Below, piece after piece: positions 16,123-24,030 of a stretch of DNA of 64,000 nucleotides. Where the stretch lies: contig PSRI01000138.1 of NCBI GenBank assembly GCA_003175935.1, forward strand, positions 1-64,000, read 5' to 3'. Positions within the stretch are counted from its first letter, which is position 1, and each line of letters begins with the position of its first letter. The notes beneath the pieces are model-generated. The model worked only from the letters and a program-made list of their open reading frames with translations. It ran no database searches and had not been told where the DNA came from. This DNA is from Bacteroidota bacterium (GTDB lineage Bacteria > Bacteroidota > Bacteroidia > Chitinophagales > Chitinophagaceae). Both the position numbers and the translations under genes were made by a program.

Positions 16123-18699
16123 TTATGCAGAATTTCTGCCGGCATTTATAATCCCAAATGAGCACCTCATAACAAGTTTCTCAAATGTTTCTTTAATAGG
16201 AGGCTGACTAAAATGCTCTTCCATTTCGCGCACTTTGGTAATGGCATACTGCTGAATGGTGGTAAGTGGTAATACAATTCTTTCACGCATTTGAACAGAT
16301 AACTGCTCAACGGGATAGTTTGCCATCAACTCATTATTGCCGGACAATTTGAAAATATATTTTTGAGTGAGCTGAAATTCATTGTAAATCTTATTCCAGA
16401 TTTCTCCATAAACAGGATGCTTTGAAAGGAATTCTGTCATCGGGAAAAAACATTTCTTCATGGCCATCTCACAATTATCAATTAGCGTTTTAAAGAAAGT
16501 GGAATTTTCATACAGGTCCTTTACTTCATTCCATCTCCCTTTTTCATCCATTGAATGCAGGGCCGTTCCCACACCATAATATCCCGTTACATTTTGTTTG
16601 AGCTGACTCCAGGCGCCCACGAATGGAATCGCACGCAAATCTTTCAGAGAGATTCGCGAAGAACTGCCTCGTTTCGCTGGTCGGCTTCCGATATTCGTTT
16701 CTGCGTAAAATCGCAGTGGACTTGCATGACCAAGATATTCGAGAAAGTTTGGATGGTTTTTCAATTCAACATAAGATTCGAAACCTTTTTCTGAGAGTTC
16801 TTCCAGCAAAGCCTCTTCATCTTTTTCCATCGTAATATTTCTTGATGAGAACAGGTCATTCGATATACCTGCATTCACAAGTTGCTCAATATTGAATTGT
16901 GCAGAATCTACTATTCCAAAATTTGAACTTACAGTTTGTCCCTGAATGGTGAGCTGAATTTCTTTGTTCGCAATATTCTTTCCGAGTGAAGCATAAAACT
17001 TATGTGTCTTTCCGCCGCCTCTTGCAGGGGGACCCCCACGACCATCAAAAAACACAACATCTATATTGTACTTCTTAGAAATTGCCGTCAATTCTTCCTT
17101 GGCTTTAAATATGCTCCAGTTTGCCATCAGGTAACCACCATCCTTAGTGCCATCAGAAAATCCGAGCATGATGGTTTGCCTGTTTCTCCTTCTTCTTAAA
17201 TGATCTCTGTACGATGGCAATTCATACAACTCAGCCATTACGTTTGCAGCTTTCCTGAGGTCATCCACTGTTTCAAAAAGCGGAACGATGTCTACATTTA
17301 ACTCTCCCGGCTTCCACCCGCTCAATAAAAACAAACCATAAACCTCCATCGCATTTAATGCACTATTGCACTGGCTGATAATATACCGGTCGCAGCCTTC
17401 CTGCCCGTTGAATTGCTGAATGTTCTTAATTGCTGCCATTACCTGCAGTGTATCCTGGTAAATGGCATCACTCAAAATTGCAGGATCCACACAATTTTTT
17501 ATTGAACCCAGTACTTTGATCTTTTCGGCAGCACTTAATTTATTGTAGTCATTTGGTATGGCTTCACTCTTTTGCGAAATTTCATCCAGCACTTTTCCAT
17601 GAACAGAACTATCCTGCCGAACATCAAGAGATGCAAAATGCAAACCAAACACTTCAACTTTGCTAATCAAACTATCAACCTGCCCCAGGAAAAGACCATT
17701 ATGCTGATAAATCAAAGTCTCCCTGATTTGATTGAGCGTATTTAATATTTCCTCTTTGGATAATTCCGTTTTGCTATCGGGAATAAATATATTGTTGTAG
17801 AGCTTATTCTCAAGCTCAGCAAGTGGAACATCAACACCTTTAAAAGTGAGCCTTCTCTTCAATCTTCTCACATCAACATAATAGCATTTAATGATTCCTC
17901 CCCTGAGTGCGTCTGCAACTTTAAGTGTGGTTTCCGTTCTCACATAAGGATTCCCGTCTCTGTCGCCTCCTGGCCAAAATCCCATTTTGATAATAGGATT
18001 TGATGGAGATACACACTCGGGAAAATTACTTTTCATTACTGAAAGAATTTTTCCTGCTGCAGGATAAAAAACATTTTCGAGATACCATATTAGACTCACG
18101 GCTTCGTCATACGGTGTCGGTTTTTGTTTTTTGAAGAACGGTGTCTTTCCCAACTGTTGCAGATACATATTTATCTGGTTGGCACTATTGTCGGTAATGG
18201 CTTTACTCAAATCGTTTATAATACCCAACACAGCACCAGGGTAAAACTGAGTGGGATGCGCGGTAAGGACCAGGCGTATTTCAAAATCCCTGAGCTTTTC
18301 TTTTAATTCTTCTTCCTTGTGAAATTGGATAACGTCAGATTCCAGGTTCTTGAGTGTGCCGGGTCCACCCATATCGTTTACAGATTTGAATGCCGCATCT
18401 TCCAACGCATCAAATAATACAACCTGGCGCTCCACGTACTGAACAAATCTAAAAAGCAGATCCAGCTTTTCTTCCTGTTTAGTGTAAGAGGTATGTTTAT
18501 TAAAAAATTCTTCAATAATTTCAACCGGGCTCATCTTCTTTCTATATCCATCTTCACAATTGCTGAGAAGAAGTGAAAGTAATATTCCAGTTTTTTCAAT
18601 CCGGTGGAAAGGAAGAGAAGTGAACAAACTATTATAAAGCTGAAATTTAATTCCAACCTGATTCTTGAATTGTGTGAGGGCTGATGAATTTCCTGCCAT
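16123..18699 (-). CDS. ppc: Phosphoenolpyruvate carboxylase
   Basis: LVLTAHPTQFYPGAVLGII, GFWPGGDRDGNPYV, FFDGRGGPPARGGG, C-terminal RNSA. Confidence 0.94.
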   Translation of the reverse strand: MAGNSSALTQFKNQVGIKFQLYNSLFTSLPFHRIEKTGILLSLLLSNCEDGYRKKMSPVEIIEEFFNKHTSYTKQEEKLDLLFRFVQYVERQVVLFDALEDAAFKSVNDMGGPGTLKNLESDVIQFHKEEELKEKLRDFEIRLVLTAHPTQFYPGAVLGIINDLSKAITDNSANQINMYLQQLGKTPFFKKQKPTPYDEAVSLIWYLENVFYPAAGKILSVMKSNFPECVSPSNPIIKMGFWPGGDRDGNPYVRTETTLKVADALRGGIIKCYYVDVRRLKRRLTFKGVDVPLAELENKLYNNIFIPDSKTELSKEEILNTLNQIRETLIYQHNGLFLGQVDSLISKVEVFGLHFASLDVRQDSSVHGKVLDEISQKSEAIPNDYNKLSAAEKIKVLGSIKNCVDPAILSDAIYQDTLQVMAAIKNIQQFNGQEGCDRYIISQCNSALNAMEVYGLFLLSGWKPGELNVDIVPLFETVDDLRKAANVMAELYELPSYRDHLRRRRNRQTIMLGFSDGTKDGGYLMANWSIFKAKEELTAISKKYNIDVVFFDGRGGPPARGGGKTHKFYASLGKNIANKEIQLTIQGQTVSSNFGIVDSAQFNIEQLVNAGISNDLFSSRNITMEKDEEALLEELSEKGFESYVELKNHPNFLEYLGHASPLRFYAETNIGSRPAKRGSSSRISLKDLRAIPFVGAWSQLKQNVTGYYGVGTALHSMDEKGRWNEVKDLYENSTFFKTLIDNCEMAMKKCFFPMTEFLSKHPVYGEIWNKIYNEFQLTQKYIFKLSGNNELMANYPVEQLSVQMRERIVLPLTTIQQYAITKVREMEEHFSQPPIKETFEKLVMRCSFGIINAGRNSA

Positions 18700-19073
18700 G
18701 TAATTATGAGATGGATTTAATGAGAATTAGCTCGTTTAGATTAATGAATATACCCGTAGAATTGATTCTCCGGGACCTTTTTTAATATGGCAAACAGGAA
18801 AAATTAGCGGCATGAAATTACTTAAAAAAATGGGTATTCAGCTTTTAATCCTCGTTGCATCTTTCAATTGATTCGAAATTTTAATTAACTCCACTGACCT
18901 TCCCGAAAAAAATGGAAGACTTGTGGAAGTCTTGAAAGCCTTATCCAGACTAACGTCTATTAGTTATTTGGAAATACTAAAATTTACACCCGTTTCTATT
19001 TGACGATTTCTATTATTTGCTTTATTCGCTTGTTTATAACAGTTTCTGATTTAACTTCGGGTCCTTCATTCAA

Positions 19074-19163
19074 ATGTTGAGTCCATACCATCATATCATT
19101 TCCTCCTCAACTTCAGTTCCTGTTACAGGGACAACAATTACTATTACTACAACAACCCTTTAA
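19074..19163 (+). CDS. Candidate threonine-operon leader peptide (29 aa)
   Basis: Manual translation from ATG 19074: MLSPYHHIISSSTSVPVTGTTITITTTTL*, with TGTTITITTTT just before the stop, upstream of thrABC; absent from the ORF track because of its size. Confidence 0.8.
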   Translation: MLSPYHHIISSSTSVPVTGTTITITTTTL

Positions 19164-19169
19164 GGGTTG
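19116..19169 (+). promoter_or_regulatory. Putative thr attenuator hairpins overlapping the leader peptide 3' half
   Basis: GTTCCTG-TTA-CAGGGAC (19116-19132) and CAACCC-TTTAA-GGGTTG (19153-19169, spanning the leader stop). Confidence 0.55.
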
Positions 19170-19256
19170 AAACATTCCATATCAATACTTGGGCACATTG
19201 CTACATCAGATTTAAAAATCTTCATTTATTCTTATTAAACTATCAAATCACATATC

Positions 19257-21698
19257 ATGCAGGTATTAAAATTCGGCGGCACATCAGTAGGTAGCGCTGA
19301 AAATATCAGGAAGGTTATAGAAATCGTAAAAGAAAAACTGGCTAATGATAGCGCTATTGTAATTGTTTCTGCCCTGAGTGGTACAACGGATGCATTGATA
19401 CAATGTGGTGAACTCGCATCTAACGGGGATGAGCAATACAAAGACAAACTTCTGGAAATAGAACAGCGACACCTCGAAACTGCAAAGAAATTATTGCCTG
19501 TTCAACAGCAAAGTTCAGTTCTTAGCCTGGTTAAGAAAATGTGCAACGAGATGGAAGACATCTGCAATGGTGTTTTTCTCCTGGGCGAATTATCAGCCAG
19601 GACTCGCGACAGGATTGTAAGCTTCGGCGAGCTCACTTCTTCACAAATAATTTCAGCAGCATTTTTAGCATCCGGAGTAAAAACAGTCTGGAAAGATTCG
19701 CGAGAAATTATTCGCACCAATTCTGCATTCGGTCATGCAGTTGTTGACTTCCATACAACGAATCATTTAATTACTGAAGATATTAAAACAGTTAAAGAGC
19801 CATTAATCGTTGCACCGGGTTTTATTGCAAGTGATGCGAATGGTATTACTACCACTTTGGGTCGTGGTGGTTCTGACTATACAGCGGCAATATTTGCGGC
19901 AGGGGTTAACGCTTCAGTATTGGAAATATGGACAGACGTTTCGGGCATGATGACTGCCGATCCAAGATGGGTGAGCAACGCCCGGGTAATTCCTTCCATC
20001 TCTTACCAGGAGGGAATGGAACTTTCACATTTTGGTGCCAAGGTAATATATCCGCCTACTATTCAGCCGGTGATGAGTAAAGGAATTCCGGTGTGGATCA
20101 AAAATACATTTGCACCTTCTGACCATGGAACCATTATTGAAAAAAAATCGACTGGTAATGGCAAAGCCATTCGTGGCATTTCCAGCATCAACAATATTGC
20201 ACTTTTGAGCTTGGAAGGGAGTGGAATGGTTGGAGTGCCTGGATTTTCAAGGCGACTTTTTGAAGCCCTATCTGCATCGCAGATTAACGTAATCCTCATT
20301 ACGCAGGGGTCTTCTGAACATTCCATTTGTGTTGGTATCGAGTCGGCTTTTGCTGAAAGGGCCAAGGAGGCCGTGGATAATGCATTTGCCAATGAAATTG
20401 CTGTAGAAAAAGTAGAGCCTTTGGAGATTGAACAGGGACTTTCGATAGTTGCGCTTGTTGGTGAAAATATGAAAAGTCACCCCGGCGTGAGTGGAAAAAT
20501 GTTTGGTGCGCTGGGGCGAAACGGTGTTAACGTAAGAGCTATCGCCCAGGGTTCATCAGAAAGAAATATTTCTGCGGTTGTGGCTACCCGTGATGTTCGA
20601 AAGGCAATAAATGTTTTACACGAAGAATTTTTTGAAACCAGCTATAAACAGGTAAACCTTTTTGTGGTTGGAACCGGTAATGTTGGAAGCAAACTTCTTT
20701 CCCAGCTCAAACAGCAATTGCCTTATCTCGCCGATCAGCTTCGCTTAGCCGTTAGGGTCATTGGATTGGCGAACAGTCGCAAAATGGTGATAAATGATGA
20801 AGGGGTAGATCTGGCCAATTGGAAAGAACTACTTGAAGCTGGTGAAAATGCAGAACTCAATCAGTTTGTCGATCTAATCATTAGTAAGAATCTCAGGAAT
20901 GCAGTTTTTGTTGATATAACAGCAAGCGATTCCGTAGCCGGGATTTATGATCGGTTACTTCAAAAAAGCATTTCTGTTGTGGCCTGTAATAAAGTTGCAG
21001 CTTCATCAAATTACAGCTATTATAAAAAATTGAAAGACCTGGCCCGTGAATACAATTCTCAATTTCTTTTAGAAACGAATGTGGGTGCAGGTCTACCGGT
21101 AATTGGAACGCTCAATGATTTAATGAGAAGCGGTGATAAGATTAATAAAATTGAGGCGGTACTGAGCGGTACGCTGAATTTTGTATTCAATAATTATGAT
21201 GGTAGCAGAAGCTTTGCAGAAGTAGTTAAGCAGGCACAGGATGAAGGTTACACCGAACCGGATCCAAGACTTGATCTCAGTGGCAAGGATGTAATGCGTA
21301 AAATCATGATTCTTGCCAGGGAATCGGGTGAAAAGCTGGAAATGGAAGATATTAGCTGTAATGGATTCCTCCCAGATTCATGTATGCAGGGAGATGTTAC
21401 CGCTTTTTACAAAGAAATGGCAAGACACGAAGCGCATTTCAGAAAAATATACGAAGAGGCGAAATCAAAGAACTGCAAATTGAAATTTGTTGCAAAATTT
21501 GAAAATGGAAAGGCAGGAGTTGGCTTGCAGTTCATACCGCCACAGCATGATCTGTATCACCTTTATGGAAAAGACAATGTTGTTTTATTTTATACCGATA
21601 GGTATCCTGAGCAACCTTTGGTTGTGAAAGGCGCCGGCGCTGGTGCCGAAGTAACTGCTTCTGGAGTATTTGCAGATATCATTCGTGCTGCGAGGTAA
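19257..21698 (+). CDS. thrA: Bifunctional aspartate kinase / homoserine dehydrogenase
   Basis: VLKFGGTSVGSAENIRKV, two ACT-like segments, VNLFVVGTGNVGSKLLSQL homoserine dehydrogenase domain. Confidence 0.95.
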   Translation: MQVLKFGGTSVGSAENIRKVIEIVKEKLANDSAIVIVSALSGTTDALIQCGELASNGDEQYKDKLLEIEQRHLETAKKLLPVQQQSSVLSLVKKMCNEMEDICNGVFLLGELSARTRDRIVSFGELTSSQIISAAFLASGVKTVWKDSREIIRTNSAFGHAVVDFHTTNHLITEDIKTVKEPLIVAPGFIASDANGITTTLGRGGSDYTAAIFAAGVNASVLEIWTDVSGMMTADPRWVSNARVIPSISYQEGMELSHFGAKVIYPPTIQPVMSKGIPVWIKNTFAPSDHGTIIEKKSTGNGKAIRGISSINNIALLSLEGSGMVGVPGFSRRLFEALSASQINVILITQGSSEHSICVGIESAFAERAKEAVDNAFANEIAVEKVEPLEIEQGLSIVALVGENMKSHPGVSGKMFGALGRNGVNVRAIAQGSSERNISAVVATRDVRKAINVLHEEFFETSYKQVNLFVVGTGNVGSKLLSQLKQQLPYLADQLRLAVRVIGLANSRKMVINDEGVDLANWKELLEAGENAELNQFVDLIISKNLRNAVFVDITASDSVAGIYDRLLQKSISVVACNKVAASSNYSYYKKLKDLAREYNSQFLLETNVGAGLPVIGTLNDLMRSGDKINKIEAVLSGTLNFVFNNYDGSRSFAEVVKQAQDEGYTEPDPRLDLSGKDVMRKIMILARESGEKLEMEDISCNGFLPDSCMQGDVTAFYKEMARHEAHFRKIYEEAKSKNCKLKFVAKFENGKAGVGLQFIPPQHDLYHLYGKDNVVLFYTDRYPEQPLVVKGAGAGAEVTASGVFADIIRAAR

Positions 21699-21731: not shown

Positions 21732-22652
21732 ATGGAACAGGTAAAAATTTTGTCTCCGGCGACTGTTGCCAATTTGGTTTGTGGATTTGATATCCTCGGC
21801 CTCGCGTTGAACGAGCCGCACGATATCATGTCCATACGGAGAATCGATGCTCCGGAAGTAGAAATAAAAAATTTAGACTCTTTCGGATTGCCTGCGGAAG
21901 CATCAAAAAATGTTGCAGGAGTTGCGTTGCTCGCAATGATGGAGAAATTAGATGACGGGAGGGGATTTGAAATTGCAATAGAGAAAAAAATTATGCCCGG
22001 GAGCGGAATAGGTTCCAGCGCGGCAAGTGCTGCAGGTGCAGTAGTTGCAGCAAATAAGTTGCTGGGAAACATATTCTCCAATGAGGACCTGGTTCAATTC
22101 GCAATGAATGGAGAAAAGCTCGCTTCAGGAGTTAAGCATGCCGACAATATCGCGCCCTGTATTTATGGCGGCATCACTTTAATCCGGAGCATTCATCCTT
22201 TGGACATTGTTTCTATAGCGCCTCCACCATTATTTGTAACCATTGTGCATCCTCAAATTGAAGTGCGCACTTCCGATGCAAGACAAATTTTGCGCAAACA
22301 AATATTGCTTAAGGATGCAATCAGACAGTGGGGAAATATTGGAGGTTTAATTACGGGTTTGATGAAAGGTGACTATGAATTGATAGGCAGGTCACTTGAA
22401 GATGTTATCATAGAACCGGTGAGAAGCATTTTAATTCCGGCTTTTAACGAAGTAAAGTTTAAATGCAAAGAAGCTGGAGCATTGGGCGGTGGAATCTCAG
22501 GCTCGGGGCCTTCCATCTTCATGTTGAGCACAAATGAAAAAACCGCAAGAAATGTTGAAGCCGCCATGATTGAGGTATATACCAAAGAAGGAATCGAATT
22601 TCATACTCACGTCACAACCGTAAATACAGAAGGTGTGCGGGTTGCAAATTGA
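21732..22652 (+). CDS. thrB: Homoserine kinase (GHMP kinase)
   Basis: PGSGIGSSAASAAGAVVAANKLLG GHMP motif; between thrA and thrC. Confidence 0.94.
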   Translation: MEQVKILSPATVANLVCGFDILGLALNEPHDIMSIRRIDAPEVEIKNLDSFGLPAEASKNVAGVALLAMMEKLDDGRGFEIAIEKKIMPGSGIGSSAASAAGAVVAANKLLGNIFSNEDLVQFAMNGEKLASGVKHADNIAPCIYGGITLIRSIHPLDIVSIAPPPLFVTIVHPQIEVRTSDARQILRKQILLKDAIRQWGNIGGLITGLMKGDYELIGRSLEDVIIEPVRSILIPAFNEVKFKCKEAGALGGGISGSGPSIFMLSTNEKTARNVEAAMIEVYTKEGIEFHTHVTTVNTEGVRVAN

Positions 22653-22716
22653 AAAATCATTTTCGTTTGGTCTGGACCGTACTGCATTTATGGGCGGACC
22701 TCATAAAATAATTGGA

Positions 22717-24030
22717 ATGAAGTATTATAGTCTAAATCATAAATCAGAACCAGTCAGTTTCAGAGAAGCTACCATTTTAGGCCAGGCGCCAGATAAAGGT
22801 TTATATTTTCCTGAACAAATTCCGAGAGTAAATCAAAATCTCATCAGCAATATTCATGATTTTTCAAATGAGGAAATTGCATTTTCTGTGATGCAACCAT
22901 ACCTGGGAGATGAAATGCCTGAAGAGATGCTCAGAAAAATTGTCAATGAAACCATTGACTTTCCAATTCCACTTATTCCTGTAACGGGAAATATTTTCTC
23001 CCTCGAACTCTTTCATGGTCCTACGCTTGCATTTAAAGACGTAGGGGCCAGGTTTATGAGCAGATGTCTCGGGTATTTTGCAGTTAAGAATGCGGGAAAG
23101 ATCACCGTTCTCGTTGCAACGTCAGGAGATACCGGTGGTGCTGTAGCGAATGGGTTTTATGGTGTAGATGGAGTAGAAGTGGTAATTCTGTATCCCGCTG
23201 GTAAAGTAAGTTCTGTTCAGGAAAAGCAACTCACTACACTCGGTAAAAATATTCATGCACTGGAGGTATCCGGTACGTTTGATGATTGTCAGCACCTGGT
23301 GAAACAGGCTTTTGCCGACAAAGATTTAACGCAAACTTTGTCACTTACCTCTGCAAATTCGATTAATGTTGCCCGTTGGCTTCCGCAGCAATTATATTAT
23401 TTCCTTGCCTATAAAAGATGGCCGGTTGCGGATCAGGCACCTGTGTTTAGTGTTCCCAGTGGCAATTTTGGAAATATATGCGCAGGAATGCTGGCGAGTA
23501 TATCGGGACTACCGGTAAAACATTTTATTGCGGCATGCAATGCCAATGACGTGGTGCCTAATTATTTGGTGGATGGACAGTTTATTGCTAAAACTGCTGT
23601 TCAAACAATTTCTAATGCAATGGACGTTGCAAATCCAAGCAATTTTGTTCGTGTGATGCAACTATTCGATCAAAATTTTTTCAAACTAAAAGAAAAATTG
23701 ACTGCTTATTCTGTATCAGACGGCGAAACGAGGGAAGCCATCAAAAAAGTAAAAATTGAAAGAGGATATCTTCTGGATCCGCATGGAGCCGTAGGCTATA
23801 TTTCTTTAGATCGTTACCTCGAATCAAACCCCGGATTGAAAGGAATTTTTCTTGAGACAGCGCATCCAGTTAAATTCCTTGATGTAGTTGAACCTATAAC
23901 CGGTGAAAAAATACAGGTGCCTTCCACCGTGGCATCGATTTTGCCAAAGCAGAAAAATAGCCATTTGATGAATGCTGATTATGGGGAACTCAAAGAGTTC
24001 CTTACACAATCGGATGTTTTCAAAAATTGA
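22717..24030 (+). CDS. thrC: Threonine synthase
   Basis: MKYYSLNHKSEPVSFREATILGQAPDKGLYFPE; HGPTLAFKDVGARFM (PLP Lys); ATSGDTGGAVA; ATG at 22717 preferred over 22633. Confidence 0.94.
   Translation: MKYYSLNHKSEPVSFREATILGQAPDKGLYFPEQIPRVNQNLISNIHDFSNEEIAFSVMQPYLGDEMPEEMLRKIVNETIDFPIPLIPVTGNIFSLELFHGPTLAFKDVGARFMSRCLGYFAVKNAGKITVLVATSGDTGGAVANGFYGVDGVEVVILYPAGKVSSVQEKQLTTLGKNIHALEVSGTFDDCQHLVKQAFADKDLTQTLSLTSANSINVARWLPQQLYYFLAYKRWPVADQAPVFSVPSGNFGNICAGMLASISGLPVKHFIAACNANDVVPNYLVDGQFIAKTAVQTISNAMDVANPSNFVRVMQLFDQNFFKLKEKLTAYSVSDGETREAIKKVKIERGYLLDPHGAVGYISLDRYLESNPGLKGIFLETAHPVKFLDVVEPITGEKIQVPSTVASILPKQKNSHLMNADYGELKEFLTQSDVFKN

Follow-up and report, generated by a model that had tools for sequence, protein, structure and literature searches.

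A conserved threonine/isoleucine leader peptide upstream of thrABC in Chitinophagaceae that may act without an intrinsic terminator

What is the small open reading frame in front of thrABC in this Bacteroidota genome, and how could it act on the genes behind it? The DNA analysed here, called the window, is a stretch of 64,000 nucleotides from a member of the Chitinophagaceae, in which the frame lies in the intergenic stretch between a phosphoenolpyruvate carboxylase gene and thrA. Textbook leader-peptide control combines two alternative RNA folds with a terminator. The first-pass annotation of the window had proposed a Thr/Ile leader peptide working by the same logic as E. coli attenuation, with the caveat that the terminator might be unusual, or else control through thrA translation. 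The genes and the frame are as follows.

16123 to 18699, minus strand: divergent phosphoenolpyruvate carboxylase gene, flanking the intergenic stretch that holds the leader
19074 to 19163, plus strand: leader peptide ORF, ATG to TAA, 29 codons, sequence MLSPYHHIISSSTSVPVTGTTITITTTTL followed by the stop
19131 to 19157, plus strand: Thr/Ile codon run T T I T I T T T T, the putative sensor
19257 to 21698, plus strand: thrA, bifunctional aspartate kinase/homoserine dehydrogenase I (AK-HSD; NF006959, 1042.6 bits)
21732 to 22652, plus strand: thrB, homoserine kinase
22717 to 24030, plus strand: thrC, threonine synthase

The start of thrC is probably the ATG at 22717 rather than the GTG at 22633. 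In the longer GTG frame, which overlaps thrB (22633-22717), the Thr_synth_N domain does not begin until residue 30.

The leader ORF, with nine Thr and four Ile residues, is present exactly as first described. When the intergenic stretch was simulated 20000 times with an order-1 Markov model, two copies contained an ORF with at least nine Thr or Ile among its 11 end codons. Relatives were collected by a ThrA scan of bacterial genomes, which gave 80 loci, nearly all from Chitinophagaceae; a Thr/Ile-rich ORF lies shortly upstream of thrA in 72 of them, and in the deduplicated set the leader stop is 64-143 nt away from thrA. Codons were counted in 86 deduplicated leaders over the ten positions ending one before the last sense codon. 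Of these 860 codons, 498 encode Thr and 203 Ile, all four Thr codons are in use, and the 203 ATT, ATC or ATA codons compare with a single ATG. Since the run consists of ACN or ATH codons with Ile far in excess of Met, the peptide appears to be selected for Thr and Ile. The mixed Thr codons together with Ile in place of Met likewise indicate that the two end products, and not a nucleotide string, are being kept.

A covariance model of the element, R1, has one significant place in the own genome, the present locus, and the search with it found no such element upstream of other operons there. R1 matches 42 of 249 genomes of the order and 30 of 297 genomes of the phylum, including other lineages (labelled f24, f25 and f43), and a second covariance model, R2, matches 47 of 396 genomes. 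All significant matches that were fetched (53 for R1 and 30 for R2, in overlapping sets) lie directly upstream of thrA. In the other families of the order, ThrA homologues are not preceded by a leader of this kind. Neither the peptide nor the RNA matches a model in Rfam, Pfam or NCBIfam, the Rfam hits being at chance level, while in the control E. coli ThrL matches its own models.

Upstream of the ORF, a consensus scan found promoter-like boxes of the Bacteroidota type.

19029 to 19059, plus strand: CTTG (19029-19032), a 19-nt spacer and TAACTTCG (19052-19059), of the TTTG/TANNTTTG type

In the 86 relatives the best promoter-like site clusters 100-120 nt upstream of the leader stop (23 cases against 1 in the reversed control), and the same scan of the relatives gave no excess of such boxes between the leader and thrA. 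The small size of the ORF, taken by itself, would suit a fortuitous frame without function, but its conservation in three lineages, the constraint on Thr and Ile codons and a chance expectation of about 1e-4 make this reading negligible. Any doubt that the ORF is real is thereby removed, and a conserved run, Ile rather than Met codons, promoter-like boxes upstream and the exclusive association with thrA strongly support a genuine leader-peptide regulator of thrABC. On these sequence comparisons, the ORF almost certainly senses Thr/Ile shortage.

The RNA around and behind this ORF contains the following elements.

19092 to 19098, plus strand: CAUAUCA copy 1, offset by 18 nt from the first base of the leader ATG
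19116 to 19132, plus strand: hairpin P0, GUUCCUG UUA CAGGGAC with one G-U pair, within the leader ORF just upstream of the Thr run
19153 to 19169, plus strand: hairpin P1, CAACCC UUUAA GGGUUG, with the stop codon in the loop and the last Thr codons in the 5' arm
19178 to 19184, plus strand: CAUAUCA copy 2, 8 nt after P1 and about 14 nt after the leader stop
19191 to 19202, plus strand: hairpin P2, GGCA CAU UGCU
19208 to 19221, plus strand: hairpin P3, AGAUU UAAA AAUCU
19222 to 19256, plus strand: A/U-rich and G-poor sequence that reaches the thrA start, with no U-tract of terminator quality

P0, P1 and P3 had been noticed before and all three are present, while P2 and the two CAUAUCA copies were absent from the first-pass annotation. 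The hairpins were evaluated by an arm-swap test, which expects a genuine helix to lose stability when one arm is replaced by that of another species. The four hairpins co-evolve in the relatives, in the order P0, P1, P2, P3, with z values of -8.8 (86 relatives, with a position scan run in support), -10.0, -7.9 (fixed segments) and -10.8, respectively, and thus include the three for which covariation had been the suggested check; control stretches gave -1.1 and +1.4. As shared ancestry is uncorrected in this test, the z values are inflated, and negative results are therefore safer than positive ones. Covariation in P1 takes the form of C-G pairs replaced by U-A and of a longer variant, CAAUCCGC/GCGGAUUG, and in two relatives (L037 and L072) the stop is shifted downstream yet P1 is retained. 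P2 is listed for 97 loci. The conserved part of the leader RNA ends at P3.

A terminator was expected behind the leader if the E. coli logic applied. Intrinsic terminators with a U-tract were found in 12 of the 86 thr leaders, where they are weak and differ in position, and none in the remaining 74, so that the caveat of an unusual terminator was well placed. By the same criterion, all 25 his leaders and all 9 ilv leaders of Chitinophagaceae have a terminator with a U-tract. Nor did the arm-swap test reveal an antiterminator: apart from the named hairpins, no pair of segments after the leader stop co-evolves, and no co-evolving helix is exclusive with P3. Possible alternative helices after the stop reach a mean of at most about -5 kcal/mol, compared with -13.1 kcal/mol for the exclusive helix of the his leaders of the same family. 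The same logic as in E. coli is hence not borne out for this leader, which has neither a U-tract terminator nor a detectable mutually exclusive helix.

Classical attenuation could still operate if P3 and the U-rich sequence behind it formed a weak intrinsic terminator and the antiterminator were too weak or too invariant to detect. P3 is real by covariation, and it is followed by moderately U-rich sequence, in which T reaches about 50% at roughly 19-24 nt past P2 as compared with 35% overall. In addition, base pairing is conceivable between CCC in P1 and GGG in P2, at about -5 kcal/mol, a pairing on which covariation cannot judge because both partners are invariant. However, the Flavobacterium-like group has not retained this GGG, and the lack of a canonical terminator in most thr leaders stands against the canonical ones of his and ilv in the same family. 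P3 and its U-rich sequence might thus cause weak termination, but classical attenuation as a whole appears rather unlikely.

Some loci with other arrangements were seen. For the Flavobacterium-like group, a 3:4 terminator with GUAUA pairing to UAUAC before six U was considered and rejected; the pairing does not occur in all members, and in the predicted structures its U run is taken up by a hairpin further downstream, as part of the 5' arm. In nine members (L173, L175, L177, L178, L181, L182, L184, L185 and L187) the 5' arm of this hairpin carries the U run, and purines occupy the 3' arm (CUUUUUUC..GAAAGAAG), a terminator in reverse. Two loci with a divergent ThrA of 48% identity (L149, 412-571; L151, 431-599) carry a Thr/Ile- or Met/Thr/Ile-containing leader that ends in SWR before the stop and is followed by a canonical terminator-like hairpin. 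As this leader differs from the main thr leader, two types of thrA leader exist in one family.

Control at the thrA start was the other alternative raised at first. Sequestration of the start gives it no support, as the region around the thrA start has no consistent pairing partner. A broader post-transcriptional reading, in which leader translation alters the stability or translation of the thrA mRNA and leaves transcription unaffected, would accommodate the missing terminator, and access of RNases to the transcript could be directed by the hairpins that precede the gene. On the other hand, the unpaired, variable thrA start lies too far from the leader stop for simple coupling, and conservation does not extend beyond P3. 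We regard this reading as unlikely.

The two CAUAUYA copies are a further conserved feature. At the place of copy 1, an exact CATAT occurs in 50 of 86 relatives, against 14.3 +/- 3.5 in dinucleotide shuffles and in only 1 of the 33 large ORFs of the window, and its distance from the start codon peaks at 18 nt. Among Chitinophagaceae it is found 43, 7 and 1 times in the three reading frames, and in other lineages it is read as H-I, T-Y-H or N-I-S. Since the motif is kept across different frames, the constraint acts on the nucleic acid. In each of the three lineages, copy 2 follows P1 at a distance of about 8 nt; its AUA is unchanged in all 57 aligned sequences, and most Flavobacterium-like members have CAUAUAA. 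A second coding frame after the stop (HITxWA-like) was rejected, as CATAT and GGG are 13 nt apart at 61 loci and 12 nt apart at 31, and the P1-to-CATAT spacing also shifts the frame. The idea that CAUAU pairs with the thrA start or another site was likewise rejected: no ATATG is present from -200 to -25 of thrA in 63 loci, and at the thrA start itself it occurs in only a third of these.

One motif present twice at fixed places and independent of the frame would fit an RNA-binding protein that recognises both copies and links expression to the occupancy of the leader, the peptide being one of two inputs. Such a protein has no candidate, however, and about 40% of Chitinophagaceae, as well as the f43 lineage, carry a degenerate copy 1, which leaves this explanation doubtful.

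Instead, we consider the best explanation, which we give an even chance of being right, to be a Thr/Ile leader coupled to premature termination of a non-U-tract type, in which pausing and Rho would end transcription unless a stalled ribosome blocks them. The leader RNA is rich in C and poor in G, with 25 C and 5 G in 78 nt, a difference reached at 0.17% of window positions; for the codon run this bias is partly forced by the ACN codons, and the non-coding P1-P2 linker contains 26.5% C and 2.9% G. The genome encodes Rho (TIGR00767, E 2.6e-189). With Thr-tRNA and Ile-tRNA plentiful, the ribosome would reach the stop in the P1 loop and depart, RNA polymerase would pause at P0 and at P1/CAUAU, and Rho could load on the ribosome-free leader RNA. 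When Thr-tRNA or Ile-tRNA is short, the ribosome would stall on the Thr/Ile run and block Rho, so that thrABC would be expressed under starvation. Pausing at CAUAU is a guess that draws on the fixed distance of the motif to P1.

As no terminator hairpin is seen in the leader RNA, its way of working is probably one not yet described. More tentatively, the element may represent a leader class of distant Bacteroidota in which gating depends on ribosome position alone, with neither an intrinsic terminator nor alternative folds, and in which the stop-in-loop hairpin acts together with the twinned CAUAUYA, a signal read by RNA polymerase or an RNA-binding protein. The element adds a regulatory RNA listed in none of Rfam, Pfam and NCBIfam, and its CAUAU copies are a possible pause or binding signal in Bacteroidota. 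In the open literature no description of a Bacteroidota thr leader was found; subscription papers were mostly outside the scope of this search, and an earlier prediction of the peptide is possible. Vitreschak and colleagues reportedly predicted attenuators in Bacteroidetes in 2004.

Among known systems, E. coli thrL (NCBIfam NF007329 / TIGR02077; Rfam Thr_leader) resembles the present leader in having a Thr/Ile-rich peptide directly upstream of thrABC and the same presumed signal. The present leader, however, matches neither the thrL peptide models nor any Rfam family, lacks a U-tract terminator and exclusive hairpins, and has its stop codon in a hairpin loop and a twinned CAUAU. In the E. coli tnaC type, a leader peptide controls Rho-dependent termination. 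The mechanism proposed here would be similar in working without an intrinsic terminator, the ribosome position hiding or exposing C-rich RNA, whereas the signal, a peptide-induced arrest in the tnaC type, would here be codon starvation. The Rfam leader that was found for Bacteroidota and tied to an amino-acid operon, the leader-peptide RNA Bacteroid-trp (RF01692; Weinberg 2010, PMC2864571), forms one long hairpin with the Trp codons in its stem, whereas most codons of the thr element lie between P0 and P1. Membership in RF01692 was rejected, as 101 relatives gave no match above the cut-off and the codons are not in a long stem.

A further comparison is provided by the his and ilv leaders of Chitinophagaceae, which belong to the same family of bacteria and have the same kind of sensor peptide. 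The own genome has a his leader with six consecutive His codons (MLRIAHHHHHHYLPRG and stop; L221, contig C271). This and other loci upstream of hisG (L208-L233) combine His leader peptides with textbook terminator/antiterminator sequences, and many his leader starts are preceded at a few nt by a TATTTTTG-like -7 box. Upstream of ilvD, Ile/Val leader peptides (e.g. ...IIIVVVVIIIPAINGGG...) are followed by strong terminators (L237, L238, L241, L242, L245, L247, L252 and L254). Chitinophagaceae therefore use textbook attenuators, from which the thr leader differs: the his and ilv leaders have canonical U-tract terminators and those of his also a strong exclusive helix, while the thr leader is a selected leader of distant Bacteroidota that seemingly lacks alternative folds and a terminator. 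Comparing the thr leader with its his and ilv sisters thus offers a clean natural contrast with which to study how the position of the ribosome is read out.
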